Shown: positions 10,756-19,771 of the stretch, one piece after another
Layout of the letters: each line of letters starts with the position of its first letter
How positions within the stretch are numbered: the stretch's first letter is position 1
Position numbers and translations under genes: made by a program
Virus record (IMG/VR): IMGVR_UViG_3300025632_001019
Coordinates: 1 to 20,454 of that record
Reading direction: 5' to 3' (one strand)
DNA: 20,454 bases
DNA from: a virus
The notes under the pieces: generated by a model
What the model was told of the DNA's origin: nothing
Database searches by the model: none
What the model saw: only the letters and a program-made list of their open reading frames with translations

Positions 10756-11141
10756 TTGCCTCTTGCTACGACTTGTGCCATAACCCCATAATTTGATACA
10801 TCTGAAAAACTATCAGTTACGGGTTCACCCTCAACTGAATTTGTTCCATTTCTCATCAATAATGTTTTCATTCTTTCTATCTTGTCGTTCATTCTAAACC
10901 AAATACCCAACAATGATAACTTAATATCTTCTGGTGTTTTTAGAATAGTTCCTACTGCAATATTTTGTGGACCATAATCATATTGTTTTCTACAAAACAA
11001 TTCATATTGGTCTTGTTGAATCTTTTTAAATTCTGATGTCATTTCAGGATAAGTTTTTTCCATATACCCAACGACATCTGTTGGTTCTCTTTCAAAATCA
11101 AGAGCCGAATCTGGTAATCCCTTTGGTGTGTCTTTAATCAT
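10743..11141 (-). CDS. Nmad1/DUF1599-like protein
   Basis: This 132-residue protein resembles the DUF1599 family, also named nucleotide modification associated domain 1. The signs are KQYDYGPQN (52-60), the all-helical core with FRMNDKIERMKTLL (82-95), and the acidic VEGEPVTDSFSDVSNYGVMA stretch (103-122). The spacing of acidic residues recalls metal-binding all-alpha nucleotide pyrophosphatases. The family is frequent in phages and has been linked by gene neighbourhood to base modification, but an enzymatic activity is not something I can assert. The gene shares one base with the stop of the clamp-loader small subunit (TAATG), so the two are translationally coupled. The family call is from motif likeness. 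Confidence 0.72.
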   Translation of the reverse strand: MIKDTPKGLPDSALDFEREPTDVVGYMEKTYPEMTSEFKKIQQDQYELFCRKQYDYGPQNIAVGTILKTPEDIKLSLLGIWFRMNDKIERMKTLLMRNGTNSVEGEPVTDSFSDVSNYGVMAQVVARGKWAK

Positions 11142-11572
11142 TATTTACTCCATATTTTTTTTAGTTGCTTTTCGTCTACACCATACTTTGATATAATCGA
11201 ATATACGACATCTTTACCCATAATGTCAAGCGTTTTCTCAATATTTTGTGAACTTTCTTCAAAGTGTTGACATAATATATCCATAGCCCACTTTTCTATC
11301 TTGGATTTCTTTTTAGATTTAGTATATCGTAAGTATGTATTTCCTCTCGGAAGTAGATTTGTATAGAATTGATAAATTGTTTTTGGTTTCAATTCCCAAT
11401 ATTGTTGTATTTCATTTACAACTTCTATCCACTCGGCTTTCATTGATAAGAATCTGTGAACCATATAATTGTTCCAACTTTTCTTATCTGCGTCTGTAAT
11501 GTTGTCCCAATACAATTGGTTCTGAACATTAGTAATTTGTTTTATGTGGTCAAATAGTGTTTTTGTTTTCAT
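11141..11572 (-). CDS. 62: Clamp-loader small subunit, T4 gp62-like
   Basis: The 143-residue protein has the plan of the divergent gp62 small subunit in marine T4-like phages. It has an N-terminal helix, then MVHRFLSM, an aromatic-rich helix (IYQFYTNLLPRGNTYLRYTK) with the typical L-P-x-G turn before basic residues, and a C-terminal part with repeated small helices ending KYGVDEKQLKKIWSK. In T4, gp62 joins four gp44 subunits to load the gp45 sliding clamp for DNA polymerase. A gp44 gene is present at the right edge, which supports the call, but about 8 kb of other genes lie between, unlike T4 where they are adjacent. AAAGG about 10 bases before the ATG is a modest ribosome binding site. Primary sequence likeness to T4 gp62 is low, so confidence is moderate. 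Confidence 0.68.
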   Translation of the reverse strand: MKTKTLFDHIKQITNVQNQLYWDNITDADKKSWNNYMVHRFLSMKAEWIEVVNEIQQYWELKPKTIYQFYTNLLPRGNTYLRYTKSKKKSKIEKWAMDILCQHFEESSQNIEKTLDIMGKDVVYSIISKYGVDEKQLKKIWSK

Positions 11573-11632
11573 AGTGAATAACCTTTTAGATATAAATAAG
11601 TATCTTGTATTAATCTGAAAATGTAATTTTTT
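11573..11632 (-). promoter_or_regulatory. 60-base gap, possible promoter for the gp62 group
   Basis: This is the longest gap in the window. Read on the minus strand, it is AT-rich and ends in AAAAGGTTATTCACT before the ATG of the gp62-like gene. TTATTTATAT about 30 bases before the ATG could serve as a -10-like element. I see no hairpin with a U-run that would end transcription of the radical-SAM gene. The plus strand contains TATAAATA (11591-11598), the T4 late promoter word, but it points away from every gene here. A promoter is suggested mainly by gap size at a module border. Confidence 0.25.
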
Positions 11633-13633
11633 TTAATATTGATTTGTCATTTCTGTTCTTGGAAATGATACTTTATATTTATCATATCTCTGTGAATCTA
11701 TATAATTTAAATCTTTTGATTTTAACTTGTAACCCTTTTCATTGAAATTGCCAGATTGAGAAAATGTATCTTTATAATTTAAATCATCTGACTCCAAAGA
11801 TTGATGAATTTCCAATCTATAATTATTATCATATGACTTACAATGAACTTTGTATTTGAATTGTGTATTTTCTAAAAGTTGTGGAATAAAGTTTTCCGTA
11901 AACTCAAAGTCTATTATGAAGTTTCCTTTAATTTTGTATAGTGCCCAAATCCAAACCTTTATATCATCTATGATTGATTGTTTTATGCTTTTTTCTTTAT
12001 CTTCAACTGAATCCATTTCCTTTTGCTTGTTTGCAAACTTTAAATAAGAGGTGTTGTAATCAATATTAGTAATATCCTTTTCATTATCATCAAATACCAT
12101 TTTGTTTAGTTTTATGTTATTATCAATATCTTGCATTGTAGTATTTTGAACATCTAATATATCTAACATCAAGTGTGTTAAATGTCCTCTAATATTACGA
12201 TTTAGTACATTGTTCTTGTAATCATTACTTACCCAATCCCCTACGAACCTATCATCTGAAATAGAATAGTGTGATTTGTGAACACTCATAGGTGTTCCCT
12301 CGTGAACTTCTACTGGGACCATCATCTTTACCCTACTGACAAACCTCTTATGTTCACCTTCACTTTCAGATTTATTATCAAAGTAGTTTCTTGTATCGTA
12401 TAAAAAGATTAGGTTTTGTAAGAAGTCCATAGAATTTTCTCTTGCGTATGCTGGTATCCAATTTGCAGCCAATTTTACTCCATTATTATGTGAGTGTTTT
12501 AATACATCTTTAATTATGTCTGGTGTTTGTCCCTTTTCCATTAATCCTAATATTTTTGGTATACCATTTTCTACTCCGACCTCTAACCAATTCATTCCAC
12601 TACTCTTTGCTCTTTTCATCAAATCATCATTCATTTTTGTAGAAGTTCTACCATAACCACCCCAATTAATTTTGAATGGAAGTTCATTTAATAGGTCAAT
12701 CAGTTCCTCAAATTGTTTCATTGAACCATTAATTAACGAATCAACAAACCAAAAGTCTGTATATCCGTATTCATTATAAAGTTTTACAATATCATCTCTA
12801 ACTTTCTTGGCTGATTTGTATCGATATAATCTTGTTTCACTACAAAATGTGCATTTAAAAGTGCAACCTCTCGCAGTCTGAATTGGTAACATAAAATATT
12901 CTTCACTATTTATCTGTTCATATAGTTTTAAAGTTTCTTTATCCCAAGTTGGAACTTCTAAATTGTTCATATTTACCAATTGCATTGGTCTTCCACCATA
13001 TACTGGGTTTCTTCCACTCCTTCCTTTTGGTAGGACTGATGCGAAACTTGGCTTCATTTTATCCCAAGTCCAAATACCCGTAACACCATTGTAGTTTTTA
13101 TTTGAACTATATTGATTTATTAAATCTTTTATTATGACCTCACCCTCATTTAATCCACAACCCACATCTACAAACTCTCTATACATTTCTACATCATCTT
13201 TTGTACTGACCAGACCACCAGATTTAGCATACCAACAATATGGTCCACCATACCAAATCTGAATATTTGGGTTTTTCTGTTTTAATTTTCTTGCGATGTA
13301 ATCTGTGGTAGTAATGTTAGAACTATAAGTTGTGAAACAAACAATATCAAACTTTGACATTTTATCAATCCAAACATTCCAAAATTTATCAAATCGTTTT
13401 GTGATATCCACAAAGTTTGCTTGAAATACTTTTCCGTCATATATTGGACTTTCTTTATTGGACAATCTCCAATATTTATGTCGTTCATCACCAACATAAA
13501 TTGCTGTCAATAAATTTAAATCTATTTGTTCTACTGAGTGGCCTTGACTTTCTAAGACCTGAGATAAACTACCAAGAGCGAATGATGGTGTTGTCAATGA
13601 CCATTGTGGGCATAAACATAATGCTATTTTCAT
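11633..13633 (-). CDS. Radical SAM enzyme with N-terminal B12-binding-like domain
   Basis: This 666-residue protein opens with a Rossmann-like domain (1-170: MKIALCLCPQWSLTTPSFALGSL, GHSVEQIDLN, DIVCFTTYSSN, IWYGGPYCW). This is the layout of the cobalamin-binding domain of B12-dependent radical-SAM enzymes. The radical-SAM core follows with C257-x3-C261-x2-C264 (ARGCTFKCTFCSETRLYRY), then WFVDSLING, GGYGRTST and WLEVGVENG, matching the barrel strands. The DxHxxG cobalamin motif is not seen, so B12 may be bound base-off or not at all. The last 170 residues are charged and unfamiliar. I chose the ATG at 13633, which overlaps the upstream stop by 4 bases and has GGGAG upstream, over TTG at 13657. 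The substrate is unknown; methylation or rearrangement of an unreactive carbon is typical for the family. Confidence 0.88.
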   Translation of the reverse strand: MKIALCLCPQWSLTTPSFALGSLSQVLESQGHSVEQIDLNLLTAIYVGDERHKYWRLSNKESPIYDGKVFQANFVDITKRFDKFWNVWIDKMSKFDIVCFTTYSSNITTTDYIARKLKQKNPNIQIWYGGPYCWYAKSGGLVSTKDDVEMYREFVDVGCGLNEGEVIIKDLINQYSSNKNYNGVTGIWTWDKMKPSFASVLPKGRSGRNPVYGGRPMQLVNMNNLEVPTWDKETLKLYEQINSEEYFMLPIQTARGCTFKCTFCSETRLYRYKSAKKVRDDIVKLYNEYGYTDFWFVDSLINGSMKQFEELIDLLNELPFKINWGGYGRTSTKMNDDLMKRAKSSGMNWLEVGVENGIPKILGLMEKGQTPDIIKDVLKHSHNNGVKLAANWIPAYARENSMDFLQNLIFLYDTRNYFDNKSESEGEHKRFVSRVKMMVPVEVHEGTPMSVHKSHYSISDDRFVGDWVSNDYKNNVLNRNIRGHLTHLMLDILDVQNTTMQDIDNNIKLNKMVFDDNEKDITNIDYNTSYLKFANKQKEMDSVEDKEKSIKQSIIDDIKVWIWALYKIKGNFIIDFEFTENFIPQLLENTQFKYKVHCKSYDNNYRLEIHQSLESDDLNYKDTFSQSGNFNEKGYKLKSKDLNYIDSQRYDKYKVSFPRTEMTNQY

Positions 13634-14199
13634 ACAAAGCAGTCTCCCAACATCCAAGTTATCAATGAATATCTTCTACCTTTTGTGACTGATGTAACTC
13701 TATGTGATAAGAATGCAGGAAAGATTGTAATACTTCCTCGTGTTCTTGGTGCGGTGTAATTATTTTTACCTGATTTGTCTGTGATACCGAACTCTAAGTC
13801 TCCACCCTCATATTTTGTTTCATCTGATAATTGAATAATGGCAGTTAGCTTTCTTGTGGAAGTTTCTTTTGCTCCACAATCAGTATGCCATTTGTATTTA
13901 CCACCATTTTCATATCGTAGTATTTTTACCTTTTCCATTTCTTGTATATTGTATTTCCAAATAGATTGATTAGATAATTCAAATACCATTTTTAGTTTGT
14001 TATTGAGTTTCTCATTATTGATTGTAACTTCTTTGTTATCACGAACTTCTTTGTTCAGAATGTTCTCATCGTAATTACCTGCGAGTTCTGATTCAGTTGG
14101 TTCACCTGTTTCTAAGTATCTCATCAACTTCTGACATTGACTTAATGATAGAAAGTCTTTTCTGTGAACTACAAATTTAAATGTATCGTTAGTAATCAT
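13630..14199 (-). CDS. 2-oxoglutarate/Fe(II)-dependent oxygenase (third paralogue)
   Basis: This 189-residue protein is a prolyl-4-hydroxylase-like dioxygenase. Iron ligands are H105 and D107 in KYKWHTDCG and H166 in FPAFLSHRVT. R176 in VTKGRRYSLI is placed to bind the 2-oxoglutarate carboxylate. Between them the YEGGDLEFG strand is typical of the P4H/PKHD group. The enzyme should hydroxylate or otherwise oxidise a side chain, base or sugar carbon. It is most like the first paralogue in the set (HTDF, LTLFPAFLCHNVTPVTKGKRY), and all three end in G-D-x-F. AAGGAG lies 10 bases before the ATG. It overlaps the sulfotransferase-like gene by 11 bases and the radical-SAM gene by 4. The oxidised substrate cannot be told. 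Confidence 0.92.
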   Translation of the reverse strand: MITNDTFKFVVHRKDFLSLSQCQKLMRYLETGEPTESELAGNYDENILNKEVRDNKEVTINNEKLNNKLKMVFELSNQSIWKYNIQEMEKVKILRYENGGKYKWHTDCGAKETSTRKLTAIIQLSDETKYEGGDLEFGITDKSGKNNYTAPRTRGSITIFPAFLSHRVTSVTKGRRYSLITWMLGDCFV

Positions 14200-14761
14200 A
14201 TGTGTAAAACTCCTTATTTAATTTATAGTGTTTATTTAAATCGTTTATATTTTCTATCTGAGTGTATTTGGTATTAACTTTCTCTCCAACTAAGATATGC
14301 TTTATATTTTCATAAGTCAATATACTATTCTTATCAACCATACTTAAAAGTCTGTCATTTATTTTTCTATTTACTATAACTCTTTCTTGTAAATCATATA
14401 AATTTAGTTCACGGACTGGTTGGTCTGTATGTTTGTGGTAAACATTAGTTTCATTTGCTATGTGTAATGACAATACTTGCTCAAATAAATTACTTCTTAC
14501 TAACAAAAAAACCTTATCGTGATAATCTATTACTTCCTTTATAAACACATCATTATCTTTATAAACTATTTTTGTTCCAATGAAACCACTTAATTTATAA
14601 CTCTTATCGAGAAATCCTTTGACTCCTAACTTATCTATTGGTGACTTAAAGTTATTAAAAAGTGGGTGTTCCCAAAACTTCCCATTTTGAGTTAGTTCCA
14701 AAGTTTTCATAAAGTTTGTAGAACCACACCTTTCAGTAGACACTACAAGTATTTTAGACAA
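14189..14761 (-). CDS. Sulfotransferase-like protein
   Basis: The 190-residue protein starts MSKILVVSTERCGSTNFMKTL, where STERCGST (8-15) fits the 5'-phosphosulfate-binding loop of PAPS-dependent sulfotransferases. VFLLVRSNLFEQVLSLHIAN has R89 and S98 spaced as in the 3'-phosphate-binding motif (R-x8-S). Together these point to transfer of sulfate from PAPS to a hydroxyl or amine. It is short for the family (usually 230-300), with a reduced C-terminal part. I prefer the TTG at 14761, because GGAG lies 6 bases upstream and the product then begins right at the first strand; it overlaps the upstream stop by 8 bases. A GTG at 14788 would add nine residues of no clear use. The acceptor is unknown but could be a product of the neighbouring oxygenases. 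Confidence 0.75.
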   Translation of the reverse strand: MSKILVVSTERCGSTNFMKTLELTQNGKFWEHPLFNNFKSPIDKLGVKGFLDKSYKLSGFIGTKIVYKDNDVFIKEVIDYHDKVFLLVRSNLFEQVLSLHIANETNVYHKHTDQPVRELNLYDLQERVIVNRKINDRLLSMVDKNSILTYENIKHILVGEKVNTKYTQIENINDLNKHYKLNKEFYTYDY

Positions 14762-15326
14762 AGGTATCTCCAACTCCCCAAGCAACACAAGAATATCTAT
14801 TTCCTTTTGTTACTCGTTTAACTCCGTGTCCTGCAAATGTTGGGTGTATGATTAATTTACCCACTTCAGGTTTAATAATTTTTCCATCAAAAAAATGAAA
14901 CTCTCCACCCTCATAATCATCATTTAAAAATACAATTAATGTTAGTTTATTTGTACTATACTCATCTAACCAATGAAAATCTGCGTGTGGATTATAATAT
15001 TGACCTACATCATACCTGTGACATTGAACTCTATTGTTGTAAATACCTTTACAATTATAATGGTAAGTAGTTAGGTCTGCTAATTGTATTGCTTTCCAGA
15101 ATTTATTCAATATTTCTGGATTACTATTTGTCTTTATATTTAAAATACAAGAATTCTTGTCATCATTTCCGAGAGTATCTCTGTTTTCTGTTCCACGGTG
15201 GTATCCACTTCTAAGGTCTGCTTCCTTGTCCACCAAATCCATAATCTCTTGGCACTCATCTTTACTAAAAAAGTTTTTTCTCTCTAAAAACCACCTAAAA
15301 TTAGGATTGGTTTTAAAGTTATTCAT
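14754..15326 (-). CDS. 2-oxoglutarate/Fe(II)-dependent oxygenase (second paralogue)
   Basis: This 190-residue dioxygenase has H114-A-D116 (YYNPHADFHW) and H167 (HPTFAGHGV) as iron ligands and R177 (VTKGNRYSCV) for 2-oxoglutarate. The strand YEGGEFHFF lies between them. It is the most diverged of the three: H-A-D replaces the H-T-D of the others, and a cysteine-bearing segment CILNIKTNSN precedes the core. Its end, VAWGVGDTFV, matches the others. I chose the ATG at 15326, which has AAAGAAG upstream and leaves a 25-base gap to the upstream stop; a TTG at 15374 would add 16 residues. It is followed at once by the sulfotransferase-like gene. Role: oxidation of an unknown target. Confidence 0.9.
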   Translation of the reverse strand: MNNFKTNPNFRWFLERKNFFSKDECQEIMDLVDKEADLRSGYHRGTENRDTLGNDDKNSCILNIKTNSNPEILNKFWKAIQLADLTTYHYNCKGIYNNRVQCHRYDVGQYYNPHADFHWLDEYSTNKLTLIVFLNDDYEGGEFHFFDGKIIKPEVGKLIIHPTFAGHGVKRVTKGNRYSCVAWGVGDTFV

Positions 15327-15351
15327 ATCTACTTCTTTATACATTTTACTC

Positions 15352-15969
15352 TTATCTGAAATGGTCTCCGACAAATAATTCTTGAATTACATATCGTTTA
15401 CCTTTTGTTACTGGCGTTACATTATGACATAGAAATGCCGGAAATAATGTTAATGCACCCTTATTCTTTTCCATCGTGTACCATTCTTTTGTATCTTTGT
15501 CTTGGATACCAAATTGAACTTCTCCACCCTCATATTCATTCGGGTCTGTTAGTTGAATAATTCCTACAATCTTTCTGTTAGAACAACTACCTGCATTAAA
15601 GTCTGTGTGCCACCCGTAGAATCCACCATCTTGGTATTCTATTAGTTTTAATTCATCATCACAACCATCAACATCAAAATGAAAAACGCTATCATTGACT
15701 ATGTTTACCATTTGAAACATTTTCTTCTGTAACCACGACCAATCTTTATTAACCTTATCTGGTCTGAACTCATTGTTTGGTTGGTCTCTTAAATACCACT
15801 CATTAGTTTTTCTAATTTCTGGTAATATTGCTGTTCCCTTTTCATCTCCTACACAACCAATTACATCTTGTTCAGATTCCATTATGTCTTTTAATAACTC
15901 ATCACACTTTTCTGGTGATAAAAAGTTTGGAATTTGGATTGAAAATTTTAAGTCATTATTGTATCTCAT
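15352..15969 (-). CDS. 2-oxoglutarate/Fe(II)-dependent oxygenase (first paralogue)
   Basis: The 205-residue protein has the full P4H/PKHD-type site: H121-T-D123 (FYGWHTDFN), H182 (FPAFLCHNVT) and R192 (VTKGKRYVI). YEGGEVQFG forms the strand before the second half of the barrel. It shares with the third paralogue the FPAFL-x-H-x-VT-x-VTKG-x-RY block, so these two are close relatives. The N-terminal 15 residues (FSIQIPNFLSPEKCDELL) match the usual PN-FLS opening of the family. AGGAG and AGG lie before the ATG at 15969. A 20-base gap separates it from the Hint-domain gene upstream. The target is unknown; a protein, glycan or base are all possible. Confidence 0.92.
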   Translation of the reverse strand: MRYNNDLKFSIQIPNFLSPEKCDELLKDIMESEQDVIGCVGDEKGTAILPEIRKTNEWYLRDQPNNEFRPDKVNKDWSWLQKKMFQMVNIVNDSVFHFDVDGCDDELKLIEYQDGGFYGWHTDFNAGSCSNRKIVGIIQLTDPNEYEGGEVQFGIQDKDTKEWYTMEKNKGALTLFPAFLCHNVTPVTKGKRYVIQELFVGDHFR

Positions 15970-15989: not shown

Positions 15990-17363
15990 TTATTTTGGTG
16001 GAATATTGTGGACCAATATGTCTGATGTAAAGTATGTATCAATATCCTCAACATCTAATGAATAAAAAGTTTCTTCTTGTGCAACTTCTGATATTGAAGT
16101 TATTTCCAATTCATTTCCGTCTTTATCTAAAAGATAATCACCTATTGACATTTCATCTGGCATTTTCCAAGTCCAAGTGCTTCCTTGTTTCAAGAAATAC
16201 TTTCCACCAACTTTATTTCTTGCCATTTTTATAGAACCATTAACTAAAGTGTATCCATAAGATTCATCACTAAATGTTCTAATAACTATTGAACCTGATG
16301 CGACTGAACCACTTAAATCGGTTGTGCTATAACTCAACCAATCATTGTAAAAAAACTCATCTGGCATACCTACGGGTAAATATGATTTAACTATATCACC
16401 AGTTTCCACATCTTGAACTTGTTTGGTTGAATCATCATACATTCTGATTAAACTTCCACTCGAAGTTGAGAGCAGTAAAGAGTTATTCACGTGATATCTA
16501 TCACCATTTAAAATAAGTTTAGAACGTGTCAATACATCATAGTCTACATTGTCTCTCAATAGAATTTGTTTATCTGGTGTCATTAAATAATCACTTTTAT
16601 CTACCTTTAAGTATCCTTGTGTTCCTATTGTTGAACCACTCGGAACAATATAGGTTTCAATTAATGAACCACTATCCACACCAGATTGGTATGTACTATT
16701 CTCTGCTACATACTTATGGAATAATATTGTGCCATCAAATAAGGTTCCATCTTGTGTTGGATTTTTAACTACAAAGTCTGGATGATATGCGTTTGTATCT
16801 GAAAATGAACTTGTGTTAAATATTGGAATTACACTACTACTTTCTGGTGATGAACCCAAAATAGTTCTAAATGTAGTTTTGTTAAATGAACCACTAACAA
16901 TTTCTAATAAGTTATCATCACTATACCAAGGTGAACCCACAAATAAATGGAAACTGCCCGTATATTGATTTTGTCCTCTTTGTGAAAAGTATGTTATTGA
17001 AGTGTTATCATTGTATTCAAAATTTACTGGAATATTATGTTTTGCAAAACTTGCACTTATGACTGATTCTTGAGAAGAGTGTGGTGTTCTACCACTAGCG
17101 TCATCGTGTCCGTAAACATATGCAGTTGAACAACCCTTTTCGTTTGCATAGTTTGCAACCAAGTCAAATGATGCGGATTGCTCATTGTATGAACCATAAA
17201 TACCTGGACTGGTATTCATTTCGTTAAAATATATATTATCTGTGGTTTCTTGTTTGATGTAGTCAACACCAGACATAATACCAATATTAGTATTTGTTGG
17301 CCAACCACCTGCACTTCCCGTGATATAATTTAATAAATTTGTTATTTTTGTTTGTACTGACAT
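15990..17363 (-). CDS. Protein with C-terminal degenerate Hint (intein/hedgehog-like) domain
   Basis: The 457-residue protein has two parts. Residues 1-298 are Ser/Thr/Gly-rich with many GSF/SGS turns, recalling phage structural proteins, though I cannot name the fold. A short piece, GVDYI...FNEMNTSPG (32-54), resembles the last metal-binding segment of ATP-grasp enzymes, but the rest of that domain is absent. Residues 299-453 form a Hint domain. Block A is STSSGSLI with a downstream GDIV (322-325). A second GDYLL (408-412) follows, and the block F/G end is FYSLDVEDIDTYF...ILVHN. The terminal H-N is kept, but position 1 is Ser (S299), the block-B T-x-x-H reads A-R-N-K (381-384), and Ile follows the Asn. 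Splicing is therefore unlikely; single-end cleavage or a purely structural use is possible. AGGA lies 8 bases before the ATG. Confidence 0.8.
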   Translation of the reverse strand: MSVQTKITNLLNYITGSAGGWPTNTNIGIMSGVDYIKQETTDNIYFNEMNTSPGIYGSYNEQSASFDLVANYANEKGCSTAYVYGHDDASGRTPHSSQESVISASFAKHNIPVNFEYNDNTSITYFSQRGQNQYTGSFHLFVGSPWYSDDNLLEIVSGSFNKTTFRTILGSSPESSSVIPIFNTSSFSDTNAYHPDFVVKNPTQDGTLFDGTILFHKYVAENSTYQSGVDSGSLIETYIVPSGSTIGTQGYLKVDKSDYLMTPDKQILLRDNVDYDVLTRSKLILNGDRYHVNNSLLLSTSSGSLIRMYDDSTKQVQDVETGDIVKSYLPVGMPDEFFYNDWLSYSTTDLSGSVASGSIVIRTFSDESYGYTLVNGSIKMARNKVGGKYFLKQGSTWTWKMPDEMSIGDYLLDKDGNELEITSISEVAQEETFYSLDVEDIDTYFTSDILVHNIPPK

Positions 17364-17385: not shown

Positions 17386-17952
17386 TCATCTTTCTAATAA
17401 ATCAGTAACATTTGATTCCAAATGCTTGATACAATGAACTATTGTAGACTTATTCCATATCTCAACGTCGTGAATTATAGACTTTTTACCCAATTTTTCC
17501 ATTTCTCTAAATGACCGTAAGTTCATATGTTTTCCCAACCCTCTATATTCATCACAAATCCAAGTATTATATGAATAACTATTGTCCTTACCAACATTCA
17601 TAGTTTCAACATTATTACTTTTAAAGAAACTTGGTGTGTCATATACTGGTGAACCTGTATTGTTCCAACTCTTTTTAACTTTACCACCTGGTGACTGCCA
17701 AACAAATGATATTATCTTATCATCTTTGGTGATGTAATGAAACTTCCTACCATTTTCTACTCTCCAAAAATAATCATCAATGTTCCACATTCCGTCATAA
17801 TTATTTATCTGTTTTCTAAATAACTTTAAACCTGACTCTAATAATTCTATCGTAGGTTCTTCGGTATGGTATTTCCAACCTTTAGGTAATTCTTCTATTG
17901 GCCAATGACCATTACAAAGTCTTTGAAATCTTAGTTGCTTCATATCGTTCAT
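17386..17952 (-). CDS. GNAT-like N-acetyltransferase
   Basis: The 188-residue protein has a GNAT core in its second half. A strand YSYNTWICDEYRGLGKHMNL holds R137-G-L-G140, the acetyl-CoA pyrophosphate loop (R/Q-x-x-G-x-G/A type). A helix with FREMEKLGKKS follows, then a strand IIHDVEIWNKSTI with an N-x-x-I/S contact typical of the fold. The first half has KYHTEEPTIELLESGLKLFRKQ and FHYITKDDKIISFVW, a usual GNAT substrate side. It would transfer an acyl group from acyl-CoA to an amine or hydroxyl. It overlaps the second SGNH hydrolase by 41 bases, a long overlap; an alternative ATG at 17943 would shorten it to 32. With the hydrolases next to it, acylation and deacylation of one substrate is a reasonable guess. 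Confidence 0.68.
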   Translation of the reverse strand: MNDMKQLRFQRLCNGHWPIEELPKGWKYHTEEPTIELLESGLKLFRKQINNYDGMWNIDDYFWRVENGRKFHYITKDDKIISFVWQSPGGKVKKSWNNTGSPVYDTPSFFKSNNVETMNVGKDNSYSYNTWICDEYRGLGKHMNLRSFREMEKLGKKSIIHDVEIWNKSTIVHCIKHLESNVTDLLER

Positions 17953-18715
17953 CTATAATTTTCTTTAATTTTTCTGCATATTGTTTATGAGCTTTTATAC
18001 CTGGATGTAATCCATCTTTTGTATGGTCTATACATTCAAACTCCACATCAAATTTATCTCTTGATAAATCTTGTTCCCAAGTTCCCCATATAATTTTATC
18101 TTTACCGATTAAACGATTTAAGATTTCATAGTTATGTAAGAAATTAATATAATGATTATACTCATTGATATCAGTTTTTTCTTTTACTTGCCAAGATGGG
18201 ATAATATTTCCATTATCATCAAACCACAATCTTCTAAAATAGTGTGGAACCGTAATGATAAATAGTTGTCGTGTTGATGTTGGCATATAAACTTCTGATA
18301 AAGTTTTGACTGCAAAATCTAAACCTGTTCCACCTGCTCCGTAATTATGAACTGCTGTGTTTTCATCTCCGAGTAAGTGTGTAAAGGTTTGTTCTTGTTC
18401 AACATCCCAACCATAAGTCCAACTATCTCCAAATGTATAGATTTGTCTTCTGGCACTCTCATCATTGTAGATTGGGTCGTGTTGTCTACCACCCTCTAAT
18501 CTACCATTATTGTTTTGGTATATGTTTATACCAGTTTCGTGTGAGTAAACATATTCACCTTTATCATTAGAGTAAACAACCTTACCTTCATCATCTTTAT
18601 GTTGATAAAGTTTTAATCCGTGTTCTCCTTGGGCGTAAACTTCACTTAGTTCTGTCGTTACTCTATAATTGTCGTAGAATAGTCTCTCTACATTATATTT
18701 AACTTTCTTGTCCAT
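17912..18715 (-). CDS. SGNH/GDSL hydrolase-like protein (second of two)
   Basis: This 267-residue protein has an N-terminal strand-rich part (1-90) and an SGNH core. Block I is YTFGDSWTYGWD with the nucleophile S98. Block II is NYGAGGTGLD (G126-G132). Block V is D234-G-L-H237 (KDGLHPGIKAH), the catalytic Asp-His pair. The usual GxND of block III is replaced by TVPHYFRR. SGNH enzymes remove or move acyl groups on sugars, lipids and proteins. Sequence blocks match the gene upstream along the whole length, so they arose by tandem duplication. The start is taken as ATG at 18715; GTG at 18724 would add three residues. It overlaps the upstream gene by 17 bases. There is no signal peptide, so it should act in the cytoplasm or on the virion. 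Confidence 0.83.
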   Translation of the reverse strand: MDKKVKYNVERLFYDNYRVTTELSEVYAQGEHGLKLYQHKDDEGKVVYSNDKGEYVYSHETGINIYQNNNGRLEGGRQHDPIYNDESARRQIYTFGDSWTYGWDVEQEQTFTHLLGDENTAVHNYGAGGTGLDFAVKTLSEVYMPTSTRQLFIITVPHYFRRLWFDDNGNIIPSWQVKEKTDINEYNHYINFLHNYEILNRLIGKDKIIWGTWEQDLSRDKFDVEFECIDHTKDGLHPGIKAHKQYAEKLKKIIDERYEATKISKTL

Positions 18716-19535
18716 ACCAACCACTTTTTCTCATTATATCTTTAATTCCCTCTGCGTATAATTTGTGAGATTCTACTCCTGGGTGTCTTCCTGCCAAGTC
18801 GTGTAAATCAAAGAATATATCAATCATATGTTTTGGTATTTCGTCGTCCCAAGTTCCCCATATGATTTTATCTCTACCGATTAATCTGTTGAGTATTTCA
18901 TAATGATGATAAAAATATAAGTAATGATTGTATTCGTTTTGTTCTGCGGCAGTTGGTTTATCCCAACATCTACGAGCCACTCCGTTGTCTTCAATGTACA
19001 TTCTTCTGAAGCTATGTGGAATCGTAATAACATAAATGAAGTTTTGATTTTCTTTGTGATTAAACTCTTGATAAACTTCTGTTATCTTTTTTACACAATA
19101 ATCCAAACCTGTTTTTCCTGCTCCATAATTCCATACTGATGTATTTTCATCTCCTAATAAATGTGGAAATGCTTCTTGTTGTTCAACATCCCAACCATAA
19201 GTCCAACTATCTCCGAAACAATGAATTTGTAATGGAGCGTTTTTGTCATTATATAGTGGGTCTTTGATTCTACTTCCGTCTAAGTAATACTCATTATCAA
19301 TATTTGTTTTTAATGGTATGGAATCTTTAGTGGGACGACCGTGTCTGTAATCAATACTTTGGTCAAAAGTTCCATCTTTATTTCCGTGTACAACTCTGAT
19401 ATTATCATTGTAATACATTTCAACATAACTAATGGTTTTATCAGAATACAATGTATCTGCGTCTGTAATTCCACTTTGTTTACTTGAAGGTGGTTTCCAA
19501 TCTATTACCTTTTTTACTTTATCGAGGATTCCCAC
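18699..19535 (-). CDS. SGNH/GDSL hydrolase-like protein (first of two)
   Basis: The paralogue of the next gene, 278 residues. Block I is HCFGDSWTYGWD (nucleophile S110) and block II is NYGAGKTGLD. The late segment EILNRLIGRDKIIWGTWDDE is nearly the same as in the second copy. Block V reads HDLAGRHPGVESH: the histidine H251 is kept, but the residue three before it is Ala (A248), where the second copy has the catalytic Asp. A nearby D246 might substitute. The start is uncertain: no ATG is near. I chose GTG at 19535, two bases after the zinc-ribbon stop, rather than TTG at 19577, which would add 14 residues lying over that gene. It may be a catalytically altered copy. Confidence 0.8.
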   Translation of the reverse strand: MGILDKVKKVIDWKPPSSKQSGITDADTLYSDKTISYVEMYYNDNIRVVHGNKDGTFDQSIDYRHGRPTKDSIPLKTNIDNEYYLDGSRIKDPLYNDKNAPLQIHCFGDSWTYGWDVEQQEAFPHLLGDENTSVWNYGAGKTGLDYCVKKITEVYQEFNHKENQNFIYVITIPHSFRRMYIEDNGVARRCWDKPTAAEQNEYNHYLYFYHHYEILNRLIGRDKIIWGTWDDEIPKHMIDIFFDLHDLAGRHPGVESHKLYAEGIKDIMRKSGWYGQES

Positions 19536-19537
19536 GA

Positions 19538-19771
19538 TTATCCCGTTTCCATCATATTTTTTGGAATTGCTCCACAATTACCACAACTAAAAACTTGCAT
19601 TGGAACAATGGCTTCTTTACCTGTTGGTGACATCAGTGCTGATATTTTCTTTAAGAAAAATGCCTGTATGAAAGATGCGTTTCCACATTCTTCACATTGG
19701 ATTGTATCTGCTTTTGATATATCTAATTGCTGTTGCCCTTGTGGCATTCCTCCGTCTGGATGACTACTCAT
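19538..19771 (-). CDS. Small zinc-ribbon protein
   Basis: A 77-residue protein with two C-x2-C knuckles, C26/C29 (QCEECGN) and C63/C66 (SCGNCGA), separated by a strand pair (SFIQAFFLKKISAL, IVPMQVF). The first 20 residues are Gly/Gln/Pro-rich and probably flexible. The pattern is a classic zinc ribbon. It overlaps the clamp-loader gene by 4 bases (ATGA), so its translation is coupled to a replication protein. Small ribbons of this type recur beside replication and late-transcription genes in large phages, but I cannot assign a function. The start ATG at 19771 is clear. Confidence 0.8.
   Translation of the reverse strand: MSSHPDGGMPQGQQQLDISKADTIQCEECGNASFIQAFFLKKISALMSPTGKEAIVPMQVFSCGNCGAIPKNMMETG

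Follow-up and report, generated by a model that had tools for sequence, protein, structure and literature searches.

A degenerate BIL-like Hint domain fused to a probable permuted ATP-grasp ligase in uncultivated marine phages

Introduction

Most of what is known of Hint domains concerns complete units that splice or cleave, and Hog domains require both Cys1 and the block-B His. In Tetrahymena, BUBL loci encode polyproteins in which ubiquitin-like domains are combined with several BIL domains. Here we describe a Hint domain, H1, that forms the C-terminal part of a phage protein encoded in a window of 20,454 nucleotides (the whole stretch of DNA analysed). Its best structural matches are the BIL of Clostridium thermocellum (2lwy) and BIL2 of Tetrahymena BUBL1 (6y75, 6tmm), with which it shares the Hint fold, the order of blocks and an HN end not followed by Cys, Ser or Thr, but whose native forms, unlike H1, retain Cys1 and the block-B TxxH. 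Like the BUBL polyproteins, relatives of the H1 protein carry several such domains in one polypeptide, although the Tetrahymena BILs flank ubiquitin-like domains, whereas the phage Hints follow each other directly.

The closest relatives in sequence are two tail-region proteins of phage NCTB (BN7874_132 and BN7874_136) and the prophage-like L352 of Shewanella hanedai, the latter being the only related Hint returned by a search of genome contigs. The Hints of these three proteins, like H1, lie at the extreme C-terminus with a short tail, end in HN and contain a GM(P/L)DE and DW region and the same block-F Asp; unlike H1, they keep Cys1 and TxxH, and they sit on tail-region or adhesin-like proteins rather than on an ATP-grasp-like domain. 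A stand-alone NCTB Hint, BN7874_135, resembles H1 in having a dead N side (no Cys1, and VTGYP for TxxH) with HN kept; it ends in a tail of three residues and, unlike H1, is without a ligase-like fusion. Because Cys1, TxxH and HN are all kept in those three Hints, which are intact and share the block-F Asp, the C side of H1 can be read as the ancestral state: the Asp at block F position 13 is probably ancestral, and the catalytic losses of H1 probably all lie on the N side.

Results

The plus strand at 15990-17363 contains many stops, and the open reading frame (ORF listing) lies on the minus strand. The gene and the residues of H1 are as follows.

15990..17363, minus strand: whole gene, 457 aa, a probably permuted ATP-grasp-like domain plus a C-terminal degenerate Hint (ORF listing; >100 distinct homologues)
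16005..16469, minus strand: degenerate Hint domain (H1), residues 299-453 (Pfam, Foldseek, hhalign, family profile)
16467..16469, minus strand: S299, position 1, the Cys/Ser nucleophile in inteins (alignment, n=86)
16212..16223, minus strand: A381-R382-N383-K384 (ARNK) at the block-B TxxH site (alignment)
16038..16040, minus strand: D442, block F position 13 (invariant, 86/86)
16005..16010, minus strand: H452-N453, block G (invariant, 86/86)
15993..16004, minus strand: C-terminal tail I454-P455-P456-K457, then stop (P455 invariant)

The residues from which the initial annotation had recognised a degenerate Hint at 299-453 (S299, ARNK, H452-N453, Ile at +1 and a tail of four residues) are all present. 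Single-sequence Pfam searches with the window protein gave sub-threshold matches to Intein_splicing (E 0.0014) and PT-HINT (E 0.008), and the Pfam match improves to E 2e-6 in one relative; the best PDB sequence match of the window protein was the Tetrahymena BIL2 domain. Aligned by hhalign to the Hints that lie downstream of H1 in relatives, the H1 family profile scored E values of 9e-14, 1e-6 and 2e-6, and the same profile picked up the NCTB Hint domains at bit scores of 57-83. A first AlphaFold model, built on a 24-sequence alignment and containing H1 as its single Hint, had a pLDDT of 50; despite this, its best PDB matches by Foldseek were inteins and BIL domains. The second model (AF2) was of a two-Hint relative, L005, that is 81% identical to the window protein (86 sequences; pLDDT 84, pTM 0.70). 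It matched BIL2 (TM 0.82 on target, 1.9 A) and the C. thermocellum BIL (0.87), as well as numerous inteins, matches that are assignable to either Hint since the L005 model has two. Structure prediction, which had been proposed as a check on the domain, therefore returned a Hint fold, with BIL and intein structures matched by both models, and the Hint-domain signal of the window protein is well above chance.

Scans of IMG/VR yielded more than 100 distinct homologues, from uncultivated marine phages, with N-terminal identity down to ~36%. The H1 family was absent from the 50,697 phage records searched, where only distant Hint relatives were found, the sole matches to the window protein in that collection being distant Hint domains of phage NCTB. 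Conservation within the family was asymmetric. Position 1 was never Cys among the 86 aligned sequences (S 54, T 22, I 4, L 3, F 2, M 1), and the block-B TxxH occurred in none of them (0/86), its columns being among the most variable in H1. H452, N453, D442 and P455, on the other hand, were invariant across the same 86, as were V438, E439, T443, Y444, F445, S447 and V451 in the terminal hairpin. Both synonymous codons were used for His, Asn and Asp at the invariant C-side positions (CAT/CAC 54/32 for H452 and AAT/AAC 73/13 for N453, n=86); residues that are invariant despite mixed synonymous codons point to strong purifying selection on the C side. Thus, where it had been asked whether homologues keep S299, H452 and N453, the His and Asn are kept without exception while S299 drifts among S, T, I, L, F and M. 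A conserved hydroxyl nucleophile at position 1 was rejected, Ile, Leu, Phe or Met occupying it in 10/86. Given that position 1 drifts and TxxH has been lost family-wide, N-side chemistry of H1, whether splicing or hedgehog-like transfer, appears very unlikely.

Comparison with the recognised classes places H1 outside each of them. At position 1, where class 1 inteins have Cys or Ser, the window has Ser, but 22 of the 86 sequences have Thr and ten have Ile, Leu, Phe or Met. Class 1 inteins also carry a block-B TxxH, where the window has ARNK and 86/86 sequences lack the motif, and an HN followed by Cys, Ser or Thr and a C-extein, where H1 has HN followed by Ile. The view that H1 cannot be a normal splicing intein is thus upheld, the more so as only four residues are left after HN. 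Class 3 inteins have Cys at block F position 4, and the corresponding residue 435 is Ser or Gly in 86/86, neither Asp nor Cys. With type A BILs H1 shares the predicted Hint fold, the HN end and a non-nucleophilic +1, and it lacks the Cys1 and TxxH that serve their N-terminal thioester. Type B BILs show no block-G similarity and cleave on the N side, whereas in H1 HN is invariant and the N-side residues are gone; the Cys1 and block-B Thr/His that go with ester transfer in Hedgehog (Hog) domains are likewise absent. We therefore class H1 neither as an intein nor as a BIL or a Hog domain, but as a degenerate derivative of the BIL type, set in an architecture that is new.

The number of Hints behind H1 varied. 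Of 107 distinct proteins, 40 stop after H1 and the rest carry one to three more Hints, joined to H1 by a linker of 3-5 residues, usually [IL]PP followed by K, GK or RK, such that the end of H1 in relatives reads HN[IL]PP(G/R)K before the CF... of the next Hint. The downstream Hints have Cys1, a TxxHP-like block B and mostly HN, and one type ends LVSDE(S). The terminal Hint at the L005 C-terminus, for example, keeps Cys1 and TDDHP, but has a conserved SD (in LVSDES) where HN would stand. That the last Hint is always without HN was considered and rejected, as several arrays end VTHNSP, LVHNKEP or LVHNEFGRK. In the tree, which requires 11 changes of Hint number (minimum possible 3), the window sequence, L003 and L004 are nested within two-Hint sequences and are sister to two-Hint L005 at 100/100. 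Because its clade sits inside two-Hint sequences, the window gene has lost a second Hint; its protein ends HNIPPK, immediately ahead of where Cys1 of that Hint stood. Among openly accessible papers, none turned up on tandem Hints or on Hints at the C-terminus of phage proteins. One phage contig holds two tandem ATP-grasp-like/Hint paralogues (L249:8708-10255 and 10842-12389).

Ahead of H1, the protein is probably a ligase, with these features.

16494..17363, minus strand: N-terminal domain, residues 1-290, probable circularly permuted glutathione-synthetase-like ATP-grasp fold (AF2 L005, Foldseek)
17211..17264, minus strand: D34...E48-x-N50-T51, ATP-grasp metal-binding motif (all four invariant, 84/84)
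16878..16880, minus strand: K162, candidate ATP-binding Lys (invariant, 86/86)
16764..16766, minus strand: K200 of PDFVVK, candidate ATP-binding Lys (79 K, 7 R of 86)
16656..16658, minus strand: E236 of LIETYI, candidate adenine-binding Glu (invariant, 86/86)

The L005 model had a pLDDT of ~90 over most of this domain, and Foldseek matched it to about a dozen chains of eukaryotic glutathione synthetases; E values ran from 3e-6 to 9e-5, but TM scores were low (0.27-0.35) and the rmsd was 9-11 A. Weak Ddl and biotin carboxylase motif matches fell on the same N-terminal residues; no profile match to the domain exceeded the curated cut-off, and profile searches of the PDB gave no convincing match. 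The alignment contains what look like the Mg-binding D...ExN and the ATP-binding Lys and Glu of ATP-grasp enzymes. A gene permutation is known in eukaryotic glutathione synthetase (Polekhina 1999, as cited in PMC2845819), and in ScGS the metal ligands Asp130 and Glu146 precede Glu386 and Glu442 (PMC2845819). The phage domain has the same order of metal and ATP motifs, with the D...ExN pair first; it differs in size (~290 residues against 450-480), in identity (10-12%) and in that no glutathione context is evident here. Sequence motifs and the model together suggest that residues 1-290 are a probable permuted ATP-grasp ligase.

T4-like genes for replication (clamp loader, clamp, DNA polymerase) surround the gene, and three oxygenase genes follow it in the window.

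15352..15969, minus strand: 2OG-Fe(II) oxygenase (PF13640), first gene downstream
14754..15374, minus strand: second 2OG-Fe(II) oxygenase
13630..14199, minus strand: third 2OG-Fe(II) oxygenase

A 2OG-Fe(II) oxygenase gene (PF13640) was directly downstream in 75/79 loci and within ~2.2 kb in the other four, and most of the 79 have three or four such genes. That these genes adjoin the ligase-Hint gene suggests a joint modification pathway. The proposed check by mass spectrometry on virions had implied a virion protein; an ATP-grasp-like N-terminal part and a setting of replication and modification genes do not support this, and a virion structural role, with weak PHROG Hint matches alone in its favour, was rejected.

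Several other genes were seen in these contigs. The modification gene cluster of the window includes a B12-binding radical SAM protein (11633-13657). Adjacent paralogues at 17912-18724 and 18699-19577 carry an SGNH-hydrolase-like FGDSWTYGWD motif, identified by eye, the former with a weak tail-fiber PHROG match. At L251:299-3034, next to a phage DNA polymerase gene, is a complete gene for a TonB-dependent receptor (CarbopepD_reg plus Plug); pieces related to it occur at the corresponding position in L252 and perhaps L250.

Discussion

Throughout the H1 lineage the active site has lost its N-side half and kept its C-side half. Because only the latter is kept, selection on C-side Asn chemistry alone becomes directly testable, and the varying number of intact Hints, with clean loss in the window clade, supplies natural before-and-after pairs, for example L005 and the window. 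In the reading that we favour, and to which, taken as a whole, we give an even chance, the probable ATP-grasp ligase (1-290) would be permanently fused to H1 (299-453), which would stem from a BIL-type Hint ancestor and have lost all N-side chemistry, with neither splicing nor detachment of the ligase. In relatives, the downstream Hint or BIL domains would probably remove themselves by Cys1 chemistry, leaving ligase-H1-[IL]PPK (or PPGK) as the mature end; in the window gene, with the second Hint lost, the same [IL]PPK end would be encoded directly.

Whether H1 itself does anything is finely balanced. Asn cyclisation is described as distinct from the acyl shift on the N side, so that C-side cleavage is chemically possible without Cys1 or TxxH, and the block-F and penultimate His are reported to be dispensable in some inteins (PMC4031507). 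Since the complete ancestral C-side set (F:13 Asp, His and Asn) is kept, any activity remaining in H1 would be Asn cyclisation at N453, releasing the short tail or whatever follows it; we regard this as roughly a coin toss, close in likelihood to a purely structural H1. If all chemistry has been lost, H1 would be a structural or recognition domain that holds the [IL]PxK tail fixed, perhaps for a partner to dock, a serious possibility that we place a little short of even. The [IL]-P tail is kept even with nothing after it, in single-Hint proteins, which would be odd were it simply discarded and counsels caution on C-side cleavage; moreover, a bulky +1 and Pro at +2 are in our judgement atypical of a cleavage site, and the entire terminal hairpin is invariant beyond its catalytic residues, so that HN may be kept for structure. 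Block F position 4, with Ser or Gly, likewise weighs against C-side cleavage, and the LVSDE end of the last Hint is also conserved, though not a canonical cleavage site. However, a structural domain would not be expected to hold H452, N453 and the block-F Asp fixed down to ~36% N-terminal identity while its N side drifts, and a second N-dead Hint with HN is found in phage NCTB (BN7874_135). There is a slim chance that the role of H1 is neither cleavage nor structural.

Other readings give the chemistry to different residues. Attachment of the hedgehog type, by an ester or thioester at residue 299, was raised in the initial annotation and has the Ser at position 1 of the window protein in its favour; it is highly improbable and is not sustained by the family: no relative has Cys1, 10/86 have no nucleophile there at all, and TxxH is missing in 86/86. 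Rather unlikely, too, is that the tandem array works as a permuted pair, in which HN and the next Cys1 flank [IL]PPK and the linker is freed or left as a thioester; such an arrangement, the reverse of normal splicing, would be akin to the engineered split-intein layout for peptide cyclisation. The first linker in two- to four-Hint relatives does place only 3-5 residues between HN and Cys1, but linker lengths vary, +1 is non-nucleophilic and a second Hint is missing from the window. A protein-modification cassette is conceivable though unlikely: a half-dead Hint would set the C-terminus of the permuted ligase, in relatives between one and three Hints that remove themselves would leave [IL]PPK there as an exact end or an activated one, and the 2OG-Fe(II) oxygenases encoded alongside (prolyl-hydroxylase type) would modify P455 or dock at that end.

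A further type of Hint among these proteins, the HA type (L223 residues 465-616, and L178), matches Pfam AXH, the ataxin-1/HBP1 module, at 3e-18 to 7e-25. No paper treating AXH and Hint together was found in the open literature. The L223 Hint also matches solved ataxin-1 AXH chains at ~5e-6 by single-sequence phmmer, and on these two matches AXH may be a degenerate relative of Hint.
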